Source: Candidatus Gastranaerophilales bacterium (GTDB taxonomy: Bacteria > Cyanobacteriota > Vampirovibrionia > Gastranaerophilales > Gastranaerophilaceae). From it: 64,000 nucleotides of DNA. Location of the stretch: NCBI GenBank assembly GCA_944326525.1, contig CALVEG010000001.1, forward strand, positions 372,001 to 436,000, read 5' to 3'. The notes under the pieces are model-generated. The model ran no database searches, had not been told where the DNA came from, and saw only the letters and a program-made list of their open reading frames with translations. A program made the translations under genes and the position numbers. Positions 39,034 through 55,856 of this stretch are shown one piece after another. Numbering within the stretch: position 1 is the stretch's first letter; each line of letters starts with the position of its first letter.

Positions 39034-39394
39034 GCCACTTCACCAATAATCAAACCTTCCATATATATATAGTTTCAAAAATAATAAAAATTGCTATTTT
39101 TTGGTCATTTGTTAAGATTTGTTAAGGTTGTTTGAATTGGTCCATATCTCACACTACAATTGTGTTTTGGACACTTAATTAAAAAGGCGGAAAACGTTTT
39201 ATAAAAATTCTAGGATGGTAAGGCTCTTTTTATACACCGTCTTGAAGTTGCCGTTTTATAACGCAATTTCTATTAAAATTATTATTTTTATGGTTTAATT
39301 ATATAATAAAAATATTTTCTTATGTATGGGCTTGCAAAACTTTGCAAAATAATACACAATAGATTGAATTTATTTAGATGAGGTTTTAAAACAA
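39034..39394 (+). other. Divergent intergenic region, 361 bp
   Basis: No gene seen. It must hold the promoters of the membrane-protein pair (minus) and of the HD phosphodiesterase (plus). A TATAAT is at about 39302, and a TTGCAA (39332), 17-base spacer, CACAAT arrangement is the nearest candidate for the plus gene. TTGCAAAA occurs twice in direct repeat (39332-39349), and CACACTACAATTGTGT (near 39150) is a small palindrome; both could be regulator sites. No terminator or structured RNA is convincing. Confidence 0.4.
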
Positions 39395-42875: not shown

Positions 42876-43655
42876 TTAACAATTGGTGTTTTGTTTTTGT
42901 AACGCTTGTTTTGCGGATTTCCAAAGAGTGTCGTATTCTTCAAGTGAATATTCTTCTAATGGCTTTTGTGCTAACTCTTCCATTTTTCTAAAGCGTGTCA
43001 TAAACTTTTGATTTGCTTTTATTAAGGCTTGTTCTGCATCGATTTTGTTCCATCTGGCAAGGTTTACGACAGCAAAAAGGATGTCGCCCATCTCTTCTTC
43101 CATGTTTTCCTTGTCATTTGATTTTACGGCATCTTCAAACTCTTTAAACTCACTTTTAATACAATCGTATAGAGAATCTTTATTGGGCCATTCAAAGCCG
43201 CATTTAACGGCTTTTTTGCTGATTTTTTGAGCACTCATTAATGCTGATTGAGCTTTTGAAACTCCATCCATTGCAGATTTTCTGTGGGATTTTTCTTCTT
43301 TTTTTATCTTGTCCCAACTTAAAAGAGCTTCTTCCGGCGAATTTACCTTAACATCTCCGAAAACATGCGGGTGGCGGTGGATTATTTTGTCATGAAGTCC
43401 TTTTGCCACATCTTCAATGTCAAAGGCACCTTCTTCTTTTGCTATTTGTGAATGCAAAATTACCTGTAATAAAACATCTCCCAATTCTTCTTGCAAATGT
43501 TTCATATCATTATCGTTTATTGCATCAATAGCTTCGTAGGCTTCTTCAACCATATTAGGGCGTAAAGTAGCATGAGTTTGCTCTCTGTCCCACGGGCATC
43601 CATTCTCCGAGCGGAGTACTCCTATTAGGTCAACAAGTTTTTCTAAATATCCCAT
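42876..43655 (-). CDS. mazG: Nucleoside triphosphate pyrophosphohydrolase MazG
   Basis: Cleaves NTPs and dNTPs to NMP and pyrophosphate, clearing non-canonical nucleotides. 259 residues: two MazG domains with the EExxE and ExxD metal motifs (VEEAYEAIDAIN, EELGDVLLQVILHSQIA; second copy EEMGDILFAVVNLARW). No ribosome site. A TAATAT hexamer lies six bases before the ATG, so the transcript may be leaderless. Confidence 0.95.
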   Translation of the reverse strand: MGYLEKLVDLIGVLRSENGCPWDREQTHATLRPNMVEEAYEAIDAINDNDMKHLQEELGDVLLQVILHSQIAKEEGAFDIEDVAKGLHDKIIHRHPHVFGDVKVNSPEEALLSWDKIKKEEKSHRKSAMDGVSKAQSALMSAQKISKKAVKCGFEWPNKDSLYDCIKSEFKEFEDAVKSNDKENMEEEMGDILFAVVNLARWNKIDAEQALIKANQKFMTRFRKMEELAQKPLEEYSLEEYDTLWKSAKQALQKQNTNC

Positions 43656-44349: not shown

Positions 44350-44721
44350 ATGGTAGATAAGAAGATAGTAAAAAACGTTAAAAATATTATTGATGGGTTG
44401 GCTATGCATCAAAATCCAGAGTCTGTTGCTATATTGGAAGATATAGGAACAAATTCACCGGTCGATGAAATAAGAGAAATGACTGCAAAAGCGCTAGTGC
44501 AGAAAAACTTGCCGGAATCATTAAAAGTTGTCATTACAAACAAAGGTAAAGGTATTAATGACATGTCAACAGGTGTTGCAATGTGCACAATTAACGAATT
44601 GTTATCACTTGAAGACAAAACAGAAGCAATCAGAATTTTAGAAGACACAGTTGAAAATAATTCTGATGATGAAGTAAGAGATAATGCCCGTTCTATTAAA
44701 GCTTTGATGGCACTTTCATAG
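44350..44721 (+). CDS. Small HEAT-repeat-like protein
   Basis: 123 residues made of three or so helical hairpins of HEAT/PBS-lyase type (PESVAILEDIGTNSPVDEIREMTAKAL, TEAIRILEDTVENNSDDEVRDNARSI). Such proteins act as protein-binding scaffolds. GGAGGGG precedes the ATG. It could be the partner of the preceding protein. A terminator follows at 44764. Confidence 0.65.
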   Translation: MVDKKIVKNVKNIIDGLAMHQNPESVAILEDIGTNSPVDEIREMTAKALVQKNLPESLKVVITNKGKGINDMSTGVAMCTINELLSLEDKTEAIRILEDTVENNSDDEVRDNARSIKALMALS

Positions 44722-51952: not shown

Positions 51953-53317
51953 TTAGTATCGTTCAAGGTACTTGTCAATTTCCCATTGAGAAACATAAGT
52001 TCTGAAAGAATCCCATTCCTTTTGTTTAGCAGATACAAATTCATTGAATATATGGTCTCCCAGTGCAGCTCTTGCAACAAGTGATTTATCCAAATATTCA
52101 AGAGCCTCTGCAAGGCTTCCCGGTAAAGATTCAATTCTTTGTTTTTTGCGTTCTTTGGTTGTAAGTTTATAAATATTGCTTTCAACCGGTGCTGGTGGAT
52201 CGATTTTGTTTTTTACCCCGTCTATGCAAGCTTGAAGTATTGTTGCGAATGCAATATATGGGTTGCACGCAGGATCAGGTGATCTTAATTCAACACGTGT
52301 TGCGTTACCTCGTTTTGCAGGAACTCTTAAAAGAGCACTTCTGTTTGCGAGAGACCAAGCCAGATATACGGGTGCTTCATAGCCCGGAACAAGTCTTTTA
52401 AAGCTGTTAACAGTCGGATTTAATGCGGCCGTAATTCCTTTTACGTGTTTTAATAAGCCGCCTATTGAGTATTTTGCGATATCTGACAGTTGATATTCTG
52501 CCTTTTCATCATAAAATGCGTTCTTTCCGTTTTTAAAAAGCGAAATGTTACAATGCATTCCCGAACCGTTAATTCCGTAAATCGGTTTTGGCATAAACGT
52601 AGCATGAAGATTGTGTTTTGCCGCAATCGCTCTTACTGCAATTTTGAAGGTTGCTACATTATCTGCTGCTGTCAAAATATCAGCATATCTGAAATCAACT
52701 TCGTGCTGGCCGTCAGCTACTTCGTGATGGGAGGCTTCTATATCAAACCCCATTTCCTGAAGAGTTAGTACAATGTCAGATCTGACATCTTCTCCTAAAT
52801 CTTCCGGTCCTACATCATAATATCCTGCCTTATCCTGCGTGGTTGTTGTAACTTTGCCGTCTTTATCTCGTGCAAATAAAAAGAATTCAGCTTCAGGGCC
52901 TATATTCATTGAAAATCCCATCTTCTCAGCTTCTGCCATTACTCTTTTTAAGTTGCATCGCGGGCATCCCTCAAACGGTGTTCCGTCTGAATTGTATATG
53001 TCGCATATTAGGCGTGCTGAATTTGCACCTGCCTCCCCTCTCCAAGGTAATATCTGGAACGAGTTTTTGTCCGGATAGAAAAACATATCGGATGTTTCAA
53101 TGCTTCTAAATCCTTTTATAGATGAGCCGTCAAGCATTATTTCGTTATTAAGAACTTTCTCTATATGTTGTGAGGGTACAGTCATATTTTTTACTTGTCC
53201 GTTTATATCAACAAACTGTAGTTTTATAAATTTGATGTTGTATTCCTTGATAAGCTTTTTGATCTCTTCCGTTGTAAACTGTTTGCCGTCTAAACGTGTG
53301 TGGCTGAATTCTTTCAT
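51953..53317 (-). CDS. glnA: Glutamine synthetase type I-alpha
   Basis: Main ammonium-assimilating enzyme. 454 residues, the length of the Bacillus-like GSI-alpha group. Beta-Grasp domain then a catalytic domain with DGSSIKGF, EAEFFLF, HHEVADGQHEVD, NGSGMHCN and VELRSPDPACNPY. The adenylylation-loop region (KLTTKERKKQRIESLPGSL) lacks the Tyr site of GSI-beta, so control is probably by feedback or a regulator. TTGGAGGACAG precedes the ATG and a strong promoter lies just upstream. Confidence 0.95.
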   Translation of the reverse strand: MKEFSHTRLDGKQFTTEEIKKLIKEYNIKFIKLQFVDINGQVKNMTVPSQHIEKVLNNEIMLDGSSIKGFRSIETSDMFFYPDKNSFQILPWRGEAGANSARLICDIYNSDGTPFEGCPRCNLKRVMAEAEKMGFSMNIGPEAEFFLFARDKDGKVTTTTQDKAGYYDVGPEDLGEDVRSDIVLTLQEMGFDIEASHHEVADGQHEVDFRYADILTAADNVATFKIAVRAIAAKHNLHATFMPKPIYGINGSGMHCNISLFKNGKNAFYDEKAEYQLSDIAKYSIGGLLKHVKGITAALNPTVNSFKRLVPGYEAPVYLAWSLANRSALLRVPAKRGNATRVELRSPDPACNPYIAFATILQACIDGVKNKIDPPAPVESNIYKLTTKERKKQRIESLPGSLAEALEYLDKSLVARAALGDHIFNEFVSAKQKEWDSFRTYVSQWEIDKYLERY

Positions 53318-53420: not shown

Positions 53421-53449
53421 TTCTCAAAAAGTGTGATTTTTTTTATAAT
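53421..53449 (+). promoter_or_regulatory. Promoter of the orphan RNA
   Basis: TTCTCA, a 17-base spacer and a perfect TATAAT on the plus strand, a dozen bases before the structured element and with no protein gene downstream in that direction until 56010. Confidence 0.6.
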
Positions 53450-53455
53450 AATGGG

Positions 53456-53791
53456 AATTATTATATTAGGGCAGGGCTAAAAAGCGTGAAATTTTTATGC
53501 GGAAAGGAATTACCGGAGTTTTTCTGTAAAAACAGTTACCCTCTCGCTTCCCTGCCTTTTGGTGATAGAATTGTTAATTTATGTAACAAAAACTGATTGA
53601 TATAGCAATTATATACTCAAAAAATACTTTATTAATATGTAAGCAATATGCAATAAAAAAGACTTAAATAAACACGAGATATATACAAACACACACTTAC
53701 TATTTACACTACCTACTACACACTAACCTTCTACACACGAGGAATTACTAAAAAGAATTCCGAACTCTATCTTCTGATAGAGTTTTTTTTT
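53456..53791 (+). ncRNA. Probable noncoding RNA of unknown class
   Basis: A 532-bp gap between two minus-strand genes (53318-53849) has no credible protein gene. On the plus strand it carries a promoter at 53421. A structured element follows: stem 53470-53476 with 53550-53556, extended by AAGCG 482-486 with CGCTT 545-549 across a CTAAA bulge. Inside is the hairpin GTTTTT-CTGT-AAAAAC at 53518-53533. The closing stem is followed by TTTT, so a short RNA of about 100 nt may end there. Otherwise the transcript runs on through an unstructured A/C-rich stretch (53680-53740) and a GGAATT/AATTCC hairpin to an intrinsic terminator at 53763, giving about 335 nt. It shows no conserved tmRNA, RNase P, SRP or 6S features that I can recognise. 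Small ORFs inside are under 11 codons. Class unknown. Confidence 0.45.
53763..53791 (+). terminator. Orphan plus-strand intrinsic terminator
   Basis: AACTCTATC/GATAGAGTT 9-bp stem, TTCT loop, then seven more T. No plus-strand gene precedes it, so it implies a noncoding transcript. On the minus strand it lacks a T run. Confidence 0.9.
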
Positions 53792-53849: not shown

Positions 53850-55856
53850 TTATTCTTGGATTATTTGCGGATAAAGTTCGTGAACTTTGTTTAAATAATC
53901 ATCCGGTTCAAAGGTTCCGATTGCAAATTCTACTATATTAAGTCCGATTTGTTGCGCTCCCGGAACTTCAATAGGAGGACCTGCTGGAGTTGAACGAGTT
54001 GTGTTCTCAGGATTTGATATTATACCGACACTTCTTAAAAGTGTTATTAATATTGAATTATCTTTTACTTCATATTCGGTTAAGCCTTTTGTAATAATAC
54101 CGACTCCTTGAGCTCCTACGTATCTTTGCATTGGTGCAAAATTGGTTTTAGCTTCAATACCTTTTGTTGTTGGGAAGTGCTGGCGGATATCATAATAAGG
54201 GTTAAAAGTTCTCTCTATTATTGAATCCATATCTTCAGAATATGTTTGTGTAACTGGTTTGGGTAATTTTATTTTAGCCTGCCAAAGCATATTTGTCAGT
54301 TGGTTTATCCATTCTATTCTAAAGTTTATAAGACTTGCTGTTCTTGTGAGTATTATGTTAAAAAAGTCTGACTTGATAAGAAATGCATCGTGTTCGTTAA
54401 TTTTGCTTATTTCTGTAAAAATTGCCGTTTCTCCGCTGTCATCTCTTAGAGGGCCGAAATTATAGGTATCTCCAAAATCGCGGCATCTGTGAAAACTTAT
54501 TTCAATTCCGTTTATGTTTATTGTGTCAGCAGAAACTTTGATTTCAGCTTCAGGGGTTGTTTCAGGGTGTTTTTTAAGTATGTAAATATCACGAGAATCT
54601 TCCGTAACAGGAATTTTTTGAGTATCGTAAAGAATTTTACTGTCAAACCCTTTTTGAACTGATATAACGTCAAAGCCGTTTTCAGGTTCAGTTGCGCGGA
54701 AGCCAAAACCGCTGTTTTTTATTAAATCTTCCGCCTGCGGATAATTTAATCGTAATTCTTCAATAATTGTATCTGCGATTTGAATGATTTTTTCATATCT
54801 TGTGATGTTTTCAAGGTGAACATCATCTGTAGAGCACCCGCAAATACTGTCGTGCGCTTGGTTTTGAATTAGAAGTTTGTAAGCATATTCAATTATTAAA
54901 TTATAATTTGCGTTTAAATGTTTTTGAAGTTTGTCGGCTTGTTCCAGTCTGTAAGAAGCTTCAGCTCTGTATTGTTTAAGTCTTGTTCTTGCTGAATAGC
55001 AGCCTGGTAGTATAAAAGTTTTGGAATTATCTCTTAATTCGTCATTCCATTCAGGAATTTCTTTTCCATCTAACGCCCTTATAGTCTTGTTTTTTTTGTC
55101 TTTGTATAGATCAGCAAAAACTAAATCAAAATATTCAAAAGGATTGGATAATTTAATTTCGTAATCTTTAAGCAGATTATTTACTGCAGCAACTTGTTCA
55201 GCAATATCAGGTTCTACTCCAAGATGATCTGCACCTATCGGCAAAAGCAGGTAATCTCCTGATTTTGCTGCGATTTTATCTAAATTATCTTTTAAAAATT
55301 CAGCTTTTTCTTCAATAGTTTTGGAGCTTGAAAAAATATCCATAAAATAGCCTCTTACAAGGTTTACTGTATTTACGCCATTGAAGATAAATTCAGAAGG
55401 CAAATCAGGCACCCCTCTCCAGACCATAATTTTATCAATCCCGTATTCTTTAATAATTGGCGGTATGTTTTTGCTATGTCCAAATGTATCCGCAAAATAT
55501 CCGATAAAGTCTTCGCAGCCAAAATCTTTGGCAATTTTTAGTCCTATTTCAAGGTTCTTTTTAAAAACGGTTTTATCAGTTAAGTATTCATCAATAAGGC
55601 AGTAAAACGGTCCGATAAAAAGTTTCTTTTCTTTAATTAGTCTTCTAATCAGTTGTTCTTTTTCAGGGCGGATTTCGAGGTAATCTAAAAGTGCAGCAAC
55701 TTGACCGTCGAAGTAGAATGACGGAATTTTGTTATTCTCTAGCATATCAAGCACATTATCGAAAACTCTTAAAAGCCTGAGTCTGAATACTTCAAACTCT
55801 CTATACCATTCTCTGTCCCAGTGTGTATGTAAATATGCAATAACCGTCTTTTTCAT
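53850..55856 (-). CDS. Glycoside hydrolase family 38-like alpha-mannosidase, short form
   Basis: 668 residues; GH38 enzymes are usually 850-1000. The family opening HTHWDREWY is at 10-18. The nucleophile Asp is in YFADTFGHSKNIPP (Asp 123), where the usual form is IDPFGHS. HDSICGCS (with QNQAHDSICGCSTDD) supplies the other conserved His/Asp. The C-terminal beta domains appear reduced. It would remove alpha-mannose from host or microbial glycans, or from mannosylglycerate-type compounds. No signal peptide, so a cytosolic step is likely. Confidence 0.8.
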   Translation of the reverse strand: MKKTVIAYLHTHWDREWYREFEVFRLRLLRVFDNVLDMLENNKIPSFYFDGQVAALLDYLEIRPEKEQLIRRLIKEKKLFIGPFYCLIDEYLTDKTVFKKNLEIGLKIAKDFGCEDFIGYFADTFGHSKNIPPIIKEYGIDKIMVWRGVPDLPSEFIFNGVNTVNLVRGYFMDIFSSSKTIEEKAEFLKDNLDKIAAKSGDYLLLPIGADHLGVEPDIAEQVAAVNNLLKDYEIKLSNPFEYFDLVFADLYKDKKNKTIRALDGKEIPEWNDELRDNSKTFILPGCYSARTRLKQYRAEASYRLEQADKLQKHLNANYNLIIEYAYKLLIQNQAHDSICGCSTDDVHLENITRYEKIIQIADTIIEELRLNYPQAEDLIKNSGFGFRATEPENGFDVISVQKGFDSKILYDTQKIPVTEDSRDIYILKKHPETTPEAEIKVSADTININGIEISFHRCRDFGDTYNFGPLRDDSGETAIFTEISKINEHDAFLIKSDFFNIILTRTASLINFRIEWINQLTNMLWQAKIKLPKPVTQTYSEDMDSIIERTFNPYYDIRQHFPTTKGIEAKTNFAPMQRYVGAQGVGIITKGLTEYEVKDNSILITLLRSVGIISNPENTTRSTPAGPPIEVPGAQQIGLNIVEFAIGTFEPDDYLNKVHELYPQIIQE

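Follow-up and report, generated by a model that had tools for sequence, protein, structure and literature searches.

The 64,000-nt stretch of DNA analysed here (hereafter, the window) comes from a Candidatus Gastranaerophilales bacterium, a non-photosynthetic gut relative of cyanobacteria. Next to its glutamine synthetase gene, glnA, lies a small RNA locus, which we term sRNA-A. An initial annotation had proposed, between two minus-strand genes, an orphan noncoding RNA on the plus strand that has a promoter and a terminator of its own; the two flanking genes proved to be glnA and a family 38 glycosidase gene. Our analysis upholds the orphan RNA, the possession of a promoter and the terminator, but not the extent and defining structure originally assigned, as the conserved unit lies downstream. 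The annotation thus caught a true RNA gene through its terminator and misplaced its body. The features of the locus, in window coordinates, are as follows.

51953..53317, minus strand: glnA, glutamine synthetase; neighbour of sRNA-A in most loci.
53444..53558, plus strand: TATAAT and bulged hairpin of the initial annotation; close relatives only, outside the conserved unit.
53570..53587, plus strand: HLR1-like direct repeat ATTGTTAATTTATGTAAC, a putative RpaB site; reverse complement of KTTACAWW-N2-KTTACAWW with 1 mismatch.
53605..53636, plus strand: core promoter GCAATT-N14-TACTTTATNNAT, with GCAATT 17 bp before TTTATT (53628-53633); predicted start ~53635-53645.
~53640..53791, plus strand: sRNA-A, ~150 nt; predicted start, with the match to covariance model R1 at 53664-53790.
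53664..53678, plus strand: TTAAATAAACACGAG, by sequence comparison a perfect complement of part of TCCTCGTGTTTATTTAA in sRNA-B.
53682..53739, plus strand: unpaired arm of 58 bases containing a single G, with complementarity to two GU-rich mRNA leaders.
53718..53746, plus strand: nearly invariant block ACACACTAACCTTCTACACACGAGGAATT (alignment A1).
53741..53761, plus strand: small hairpin GGAATT/AATTCC; 89.1% of cells paired, mostly invariant.
53762..53791, plus strand: intrinsic terminator; helix formed by 53764-53771 and 53776-53783, followed by a T-run.
53850..55856, minus strand: glycosyl hydrolase family 38 protein gene; neighbour of sRNA-A in many loci.

In the conserved unit, an upstream box is followed by a core promoter and by an RNA ending at the terminator (stem 53762-53785 followed by a T-run), and from this arrangement we infer that sRNA-A is transcribed. 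In alignment A1 (25 rows from 24 loci, excluding L029-L031 as well as L015, L016 and L018, which are cut by contig ends), the block around ACACTAACCT...ACACGAGGAATT was almost invariant. The terminator helix showed two-sided changes in 8 of 8 pairs, and the two-helix structure reached a covariation score of 0.295 as compared to 0.123 ± 0.015 in shuffles, falling to 0.039-0.121 when pairing partners were slid by 1-3 columns. This covariation fixes the plus strand as that of sRNA-A; the small hairpin, being mostly invariant, gains weak support from it. No conserved reading frame was seen across sRNA-A loci. The element forms an independent intergenic unit with its own conserved plus-strand promoter and intrinsic terminator, and is indeed not a glnA leader.

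The initial annotation had the transcript begin at ~53456, behind a perfect -10 box, and contain a bulged 12-bp closing stem around an inner hairpin. Inspection of the sequence confirmed TATAAT at 53444-53449 with TTCTCA 17 bp upstream, but promoter-like sites were no commoner here than in shuffles (19 in 4 kb versus 15.3 ± 3.6). A stem can be folded at ~53468-53558, though its closing helix comprises 9 + 5 pairs across a 5-nt bulge instead of 12. While the entire 336 nt folded with a z of -3.28 (0 of 100 shuffles as good), the hairpin alone gave -1.5, with 17 of 200 shuffles folding equally well. A transcript from ~53456 whose function resides in the bulged hairpin would agree with the presence of both elements and with a short block (~53427-53471) retained in several same-genus genomes. 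However, the hairpin was recognisable in just 4 of 14 same-genus glnA-upstream regions (L002-L005), its stability does not exceed that of shuffles, and the conserved promoter (53570-53636) and the predicted RNA start near 53640 lie downstream. We therefore rejected it as a functional domain, given its 4 of 14 genus loci, and consider such a transcript very improbable; a second, upstream start at ~53456 may exist in addition. A perfect inverted repeat, ATAATAAT-GGGA-ATTATTAT at 53445-53464, overlaps TATAAT, is retained in the closest relatives and is a possible operator.

A DNA search matched 45 of 59 related genomes, and beyond the closest relatives the main matches spanned ~53570 to ~53792, with the hairpin outside them. 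The comparative covariance model that had been suggested as a check was built (R1) and, at E ≤ 0.001, detected the RNA in 261 of the order's 286 genomes (1-6 matches per genome); all but two of these, 259, belong to the window's own family, and the remaining two gave weak matches. Among the 20 misses listed for the order, 5 belong to that family. In a phylum sample of 386 genomes, 166 matched, every one in the window's own family, and no match was found outside it; 20 of the 220 misses were listed by name. Within 1.5 kb of sRNA-A, glnA was present in 42 of 50 tabulated loci, 7 of the 50 duplicating an already counted place. It is mostly divergent from sRNA-A, and lies downstream and codirectional in four loci with tandem sRNA-A copies (L017, L054, L059, L062).

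The class had not been recognised in the initial annotation, and an Rfam search of the interval likewise returned no match at the gathering threshold and nothing usable at permissive ones, where matches were at chance level only. Within the sources that it covered, our literature search turned up no study of small RNAs in the Gastranaerophilales group, nor of an HLR1 regulon there. sRNA-A is a small RNA new to Rfam with an HLR1-type promoter, and it occurs almost universally across a large family of cyanobacterial relatives that do not photosynthesise. Its length would probably suit a divergent form of 6S, SRP or another established housekeeping RNA, a reading we regard as extremely improbable: besides the Rfam result, the invariant unpaired arm is unlike such structured classes, and the genome's best 6S candidate sits on a different contig. 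6S RNA (RF00013) was accordingly dismissed, having no match at the locus and a candidate elsewhere in the genome. That candidate (L001, G000:C4:580-747, minus strand) scored 37.9 bits against an Rfam gathering score of 46.4. Most likely, sRNA-A belongs to the base-pairing sRNAs.

In cyanobacteria, the RpaB system and its HLR1 sites serve light-stress, light and redox control. The HLR1 motif bound by RpaB is given as KTTACAWW-N2-KTTACAWW in PMC13421787 and PMC9241938. The box upstream of sRNA-A, WWTGTAAM-NN-WWTGTAAM, is its reverse complement. At ≤1 mismatch, the core GCAATT-N14-TACTTTATNNAT occurred in 14 of 14 genus genomes at 16-28 sites each, whereas the reversed control pattern yielded 0 or 1 site per genome. 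The window's own genome has 24 core sites at this threshold, and 48 versus 9 for the control at ≤2 mismatches. At the spacing seen ahead of sRNA-A, five of the 24 carry a perfect HLR1-like box (0.01 expected from shuffles) and 11 carry one with ≤2 mismatches (0.57 expected). A good HLR1 match is absent at the other 13, which leaves room for the core to respond to a different factor, for example another sigma factor.

Before sRNA-A itself, the box was present at ≤2 mismatches in 48 of 59 scored core matches and perfect in 18, nearly always starting 35 bases ahead of GCAATT. These 59 matches represent 52 loci; L025 and L027 are each counted twice for one RNA, and L009 and L018 rest on an off-register promoter match. 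According to PMC13421787, activation in cyanobacteria is associated with an HLR1 located upstream, at about -45 to -66. With the RNA predicted to start at 53640, the sRNA-A box would occupy -70 to -53; with 53635, likewise a prediction, it would occupy -65 to -48. The genome encodes an RpaB orthologue (NCBIfam NF045944, 361.2 bits against a cut-off of 330), the other two of the three OmpR-type regulators found falling below that cut-off. From sequence, we infer binding of RpaB to the sRNA-A promoter and the direction of its effect.

Downstream of the 24 own-genome sites lie four small RNAs and some 20 genes, mostly unnamed; the promoter signature thereby yields about 24 candidate transcription units per genome, two of them candidate sRNA targets. 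A Pfam scan of nine regulon proteins identified an HD domain (L094) and a ribbon-helix-helix domain (L132) above cut-off, and no match above cut-off in the remaining seven. Within the window, a copy of the promoter core with two mismatches lies directly before an ATG (39063-39094, minus strand), possibly marking a further regulon member. The small RNAs sharing the promoter with sRNA-A are listed below.

L133, G000:C3 ~42900-43082, minus strand: sRNA-B, TACTCTCTCTCTTAATATCCTCGTGTTTATTTAATG plus terminator; relatives L206-L235.
L131, G000:C2:109397-109428, plus strand: sRNA-C, a second AC-rich small RNA with motifs in common with sRNA-A.
L137, G000:C6:70530-70561, minus strand: sRNA-D, AG-rich; relatives L245-L258.

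Further sRNA-C loci are L066, L071, L074 and L077.

Two regulon genes have GU-rich leaders directly after the shared promoter: L138, an unnamed gene for a 226-aa protein, matched in 48 of 60 genomes of the family, and L094, encoding the HD-domain protein, matched in 60 of 60 (paralogues included). Across genera, these leaders retain GUAGUGUAGU-like and AAGGU-like sequence. When 30 loci were fetched for each of the two targets (T1 and T2), the promoter could not be located at 5 of the T1 and 2 of the T2 loci, and at least three of the matches for T2 (L201, L202, L204) are not leaders. Pairing of the leaders with their own sRNA-A was predicted at -30.4 kcal/mol (L138) and -26.5 kcal/mol (L094), as compared to a mean of -11.6 (sd 4.3) kcal/mol for 54 start regions of the window, one unrelated start reaching -27.2. 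When 45-nt leaders were compared, L138 (-26.8), L094 (-26.5) and L135 (-17.1 kcal/mol) stood against a range of -3.9 to -14.8 kcal/mol for the other 17.

Pairing was then scored at 21 T1 and 23 T2 loci (one of the latter without a leader) out of 30 each, all from genomes with an sRNA-A locus. Leaders shuffled at the dinucleotide level came close to the real ones in pairing strength (mean z -1.3 and -1.36; 9 of 43 below -2), implying that much of the affinity reflects an AC-against-GU composition. Because energies barely differed from those of shuffled leaders, the longest exact pairing was scored as well. It averaged 8.6 versus 7.5 in shuffles for T1 (n = 21) and 8.8 versus 7.1 for T2 (n = 22), with 0 of 100 shuffled sets as high for either target; as the genomes are related, this does not amount to 43 independent tests. 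The recurrent pairing segments ACACTACC, CTACACAC and ACACACTA sit in the well conserved arm. Altogether, the sequence evidence for pairing between sRNA-A and the leaders appears real but moderate, and the likeliest outcome of such pairing would be repression through covering of AAGG.

Two other pairings emerged. The unrelated start region at -27.2 kcal/mol belongs to a 123-aa gene (window 44350-44721) with no promoter copy nearby, and reflects either chance or a further target. The glnA mRNA was discarded as a target: its pairing (-15.1 kcal/mol) occurred in one genome only and, judging by sequence, rested on a GAATTC palindrome.

That leader pairing energies are largely compositional would also fit a different role, that of a protein sponge: repeated AC/UAC motifs of sRNA-A would bind and titrate Rho or an RNA-binding protein, and composition alone would account for the leader complementarity. 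The arm does lack pairing and is repetitive, and the ACACTAACCT unit is duplicated in L025 and L027. Yet exact pairing exceeds shuffles, and titration of a protein does not explain why two GU-rich leaders lie behind sRNA-A's own promoter type; we deem this role rather unlikely.

Complementarity also links the small RNAs to one another. Most of TCCTCGTGTTTATTTAA in sRNA-B is the complement of the sRNA-A 5' segment, and the two RNAs share a perfect complement of 15-16 bases in the window's own genome as well as in 5 of the 9 tested relatives. At ≤1 mismatch, the sRNA-B motif occurred in 54 of 60 family genomes, one match each in G014, G032 and G241 being sRNA-A itself read backwards; the shared promoter, at ≤2 mismatches, lay 85-142 bases upstream of it in 23 of 30 loci inspected. 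In the window's own genome, 12 of 200 sRNA-B shuffles reached the A-B pairing energy. In G022, sRNA-A is altered within the paired segment and sRNA-B is unaltered; a compensating change was looked for in this genome and not found. The B-D duplex scored -55.6 versus -26.0 ± 3.9 for shuffles, none of 200 being as strong, and a D-type motif at ≤2 mismatches was present in 14 of 60 genomes. To judge by its sequence, sRNA-D looks like a target mimic of sRNA-B. Many regulon leaders among loci L118-L139 are AG-rich and score best with the CU-rich sRNA-B.

Might sRNA-A act mainly on other small RNAs, namely sRNA-B, with the two mRNAs not its main targets? Conservation of the 15-16-base complement in most genera examined would favour this, as would the B-D pairing far beyond chance. 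However, the block of sRNA-A that varies least is located in and next to the arm, outside the 5' segment, and that segment is lost or changed in four rows of A1 (L025-L028). We consider this reading quite unlikely.

Taking these observations together, we lean slightly towards sRNA-A being a trans-acting sRNA activated by an RpaB-type regulator, which represses mRNAs through its arm and pairs with sRNA-B through its 5' segment. According to this model, the genome's RpaB-type response regulator would activate the sRNA-A promoter, and the intrinsic terminator would end the transcript. The nearly G-free arm would then pair with at least two mRNAs that carry the same promoter as sRNA-A, those for the HD-domain and 226-aa proteins, at their GU-rich 5' leaders. 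Such pairing is predicted to cover the AAGG(U) ribosome-binding sequence and lower translation; since the repressed mRNAs share the sRNA's promoter, regulator, sRNA and mRNAs would form a feed-forward loop. The 5' segment TTAAATAAACACGAG would pair with sRNA-B, which either titrates sRNA-A or is titrated by it. Both pairing in the cell and repression by sRNA-A are thus predictions.

On a broader scale, it is possible, albeit a tentative proposal, that in these non-photosynthetic gut bacteria the RpaB system persists at the centre of an RNA circuit. A single class of HLR1-type promoter would drive unnamed genes with GU-rich or AG-rich leaders; the AC-rich sRNA-A and sRNA-C would face the GU-rich leaders and the CU-rich sRNA-B the AG-rich ones, with the AG-rich sRNA-D mimicking the targets of sRNA-B, and A and B complementary to each other.

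Several known systems invite comparison. Yfr1 of cyanobacteria is a short RNA whose unpaired C-rich motif has been proposed to pair close to ribosome-binding sites; this motif and its two flanking stem-loops were not seen in sRNA-A. The LhrC-type sRNAs of Listeria are multicopy paralogues under one response regulator that direct unpaired motifs against ribosome-binding sites. They belong to a different phylum and are CU-rich, as opposed to the AC-rich arm of sRNA-A, which, unlike LhrC, has a complementary sRNA under the same promoter. PsrR1 of Synechocystis is described in PMC13421787 as an RpaB-controlled base-pairing sRNA tied to HLR1, with a proposed feed-forward loop in which it prevents mRNAs of its own regulon from being translated. 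sRNA-A differs from PsrR1 in having an AC-rich arm, no photosystem targets and no Rfam match, and in that its candidate mRNA targets are under the same promoter as the sRNA. Like PsrR1, it is linked to RpaB and HLR1 and, in the model proposed here, acts in a feed-forward manner. sRNA-A would hence work like PsrR1, a likeness we propose for function only.
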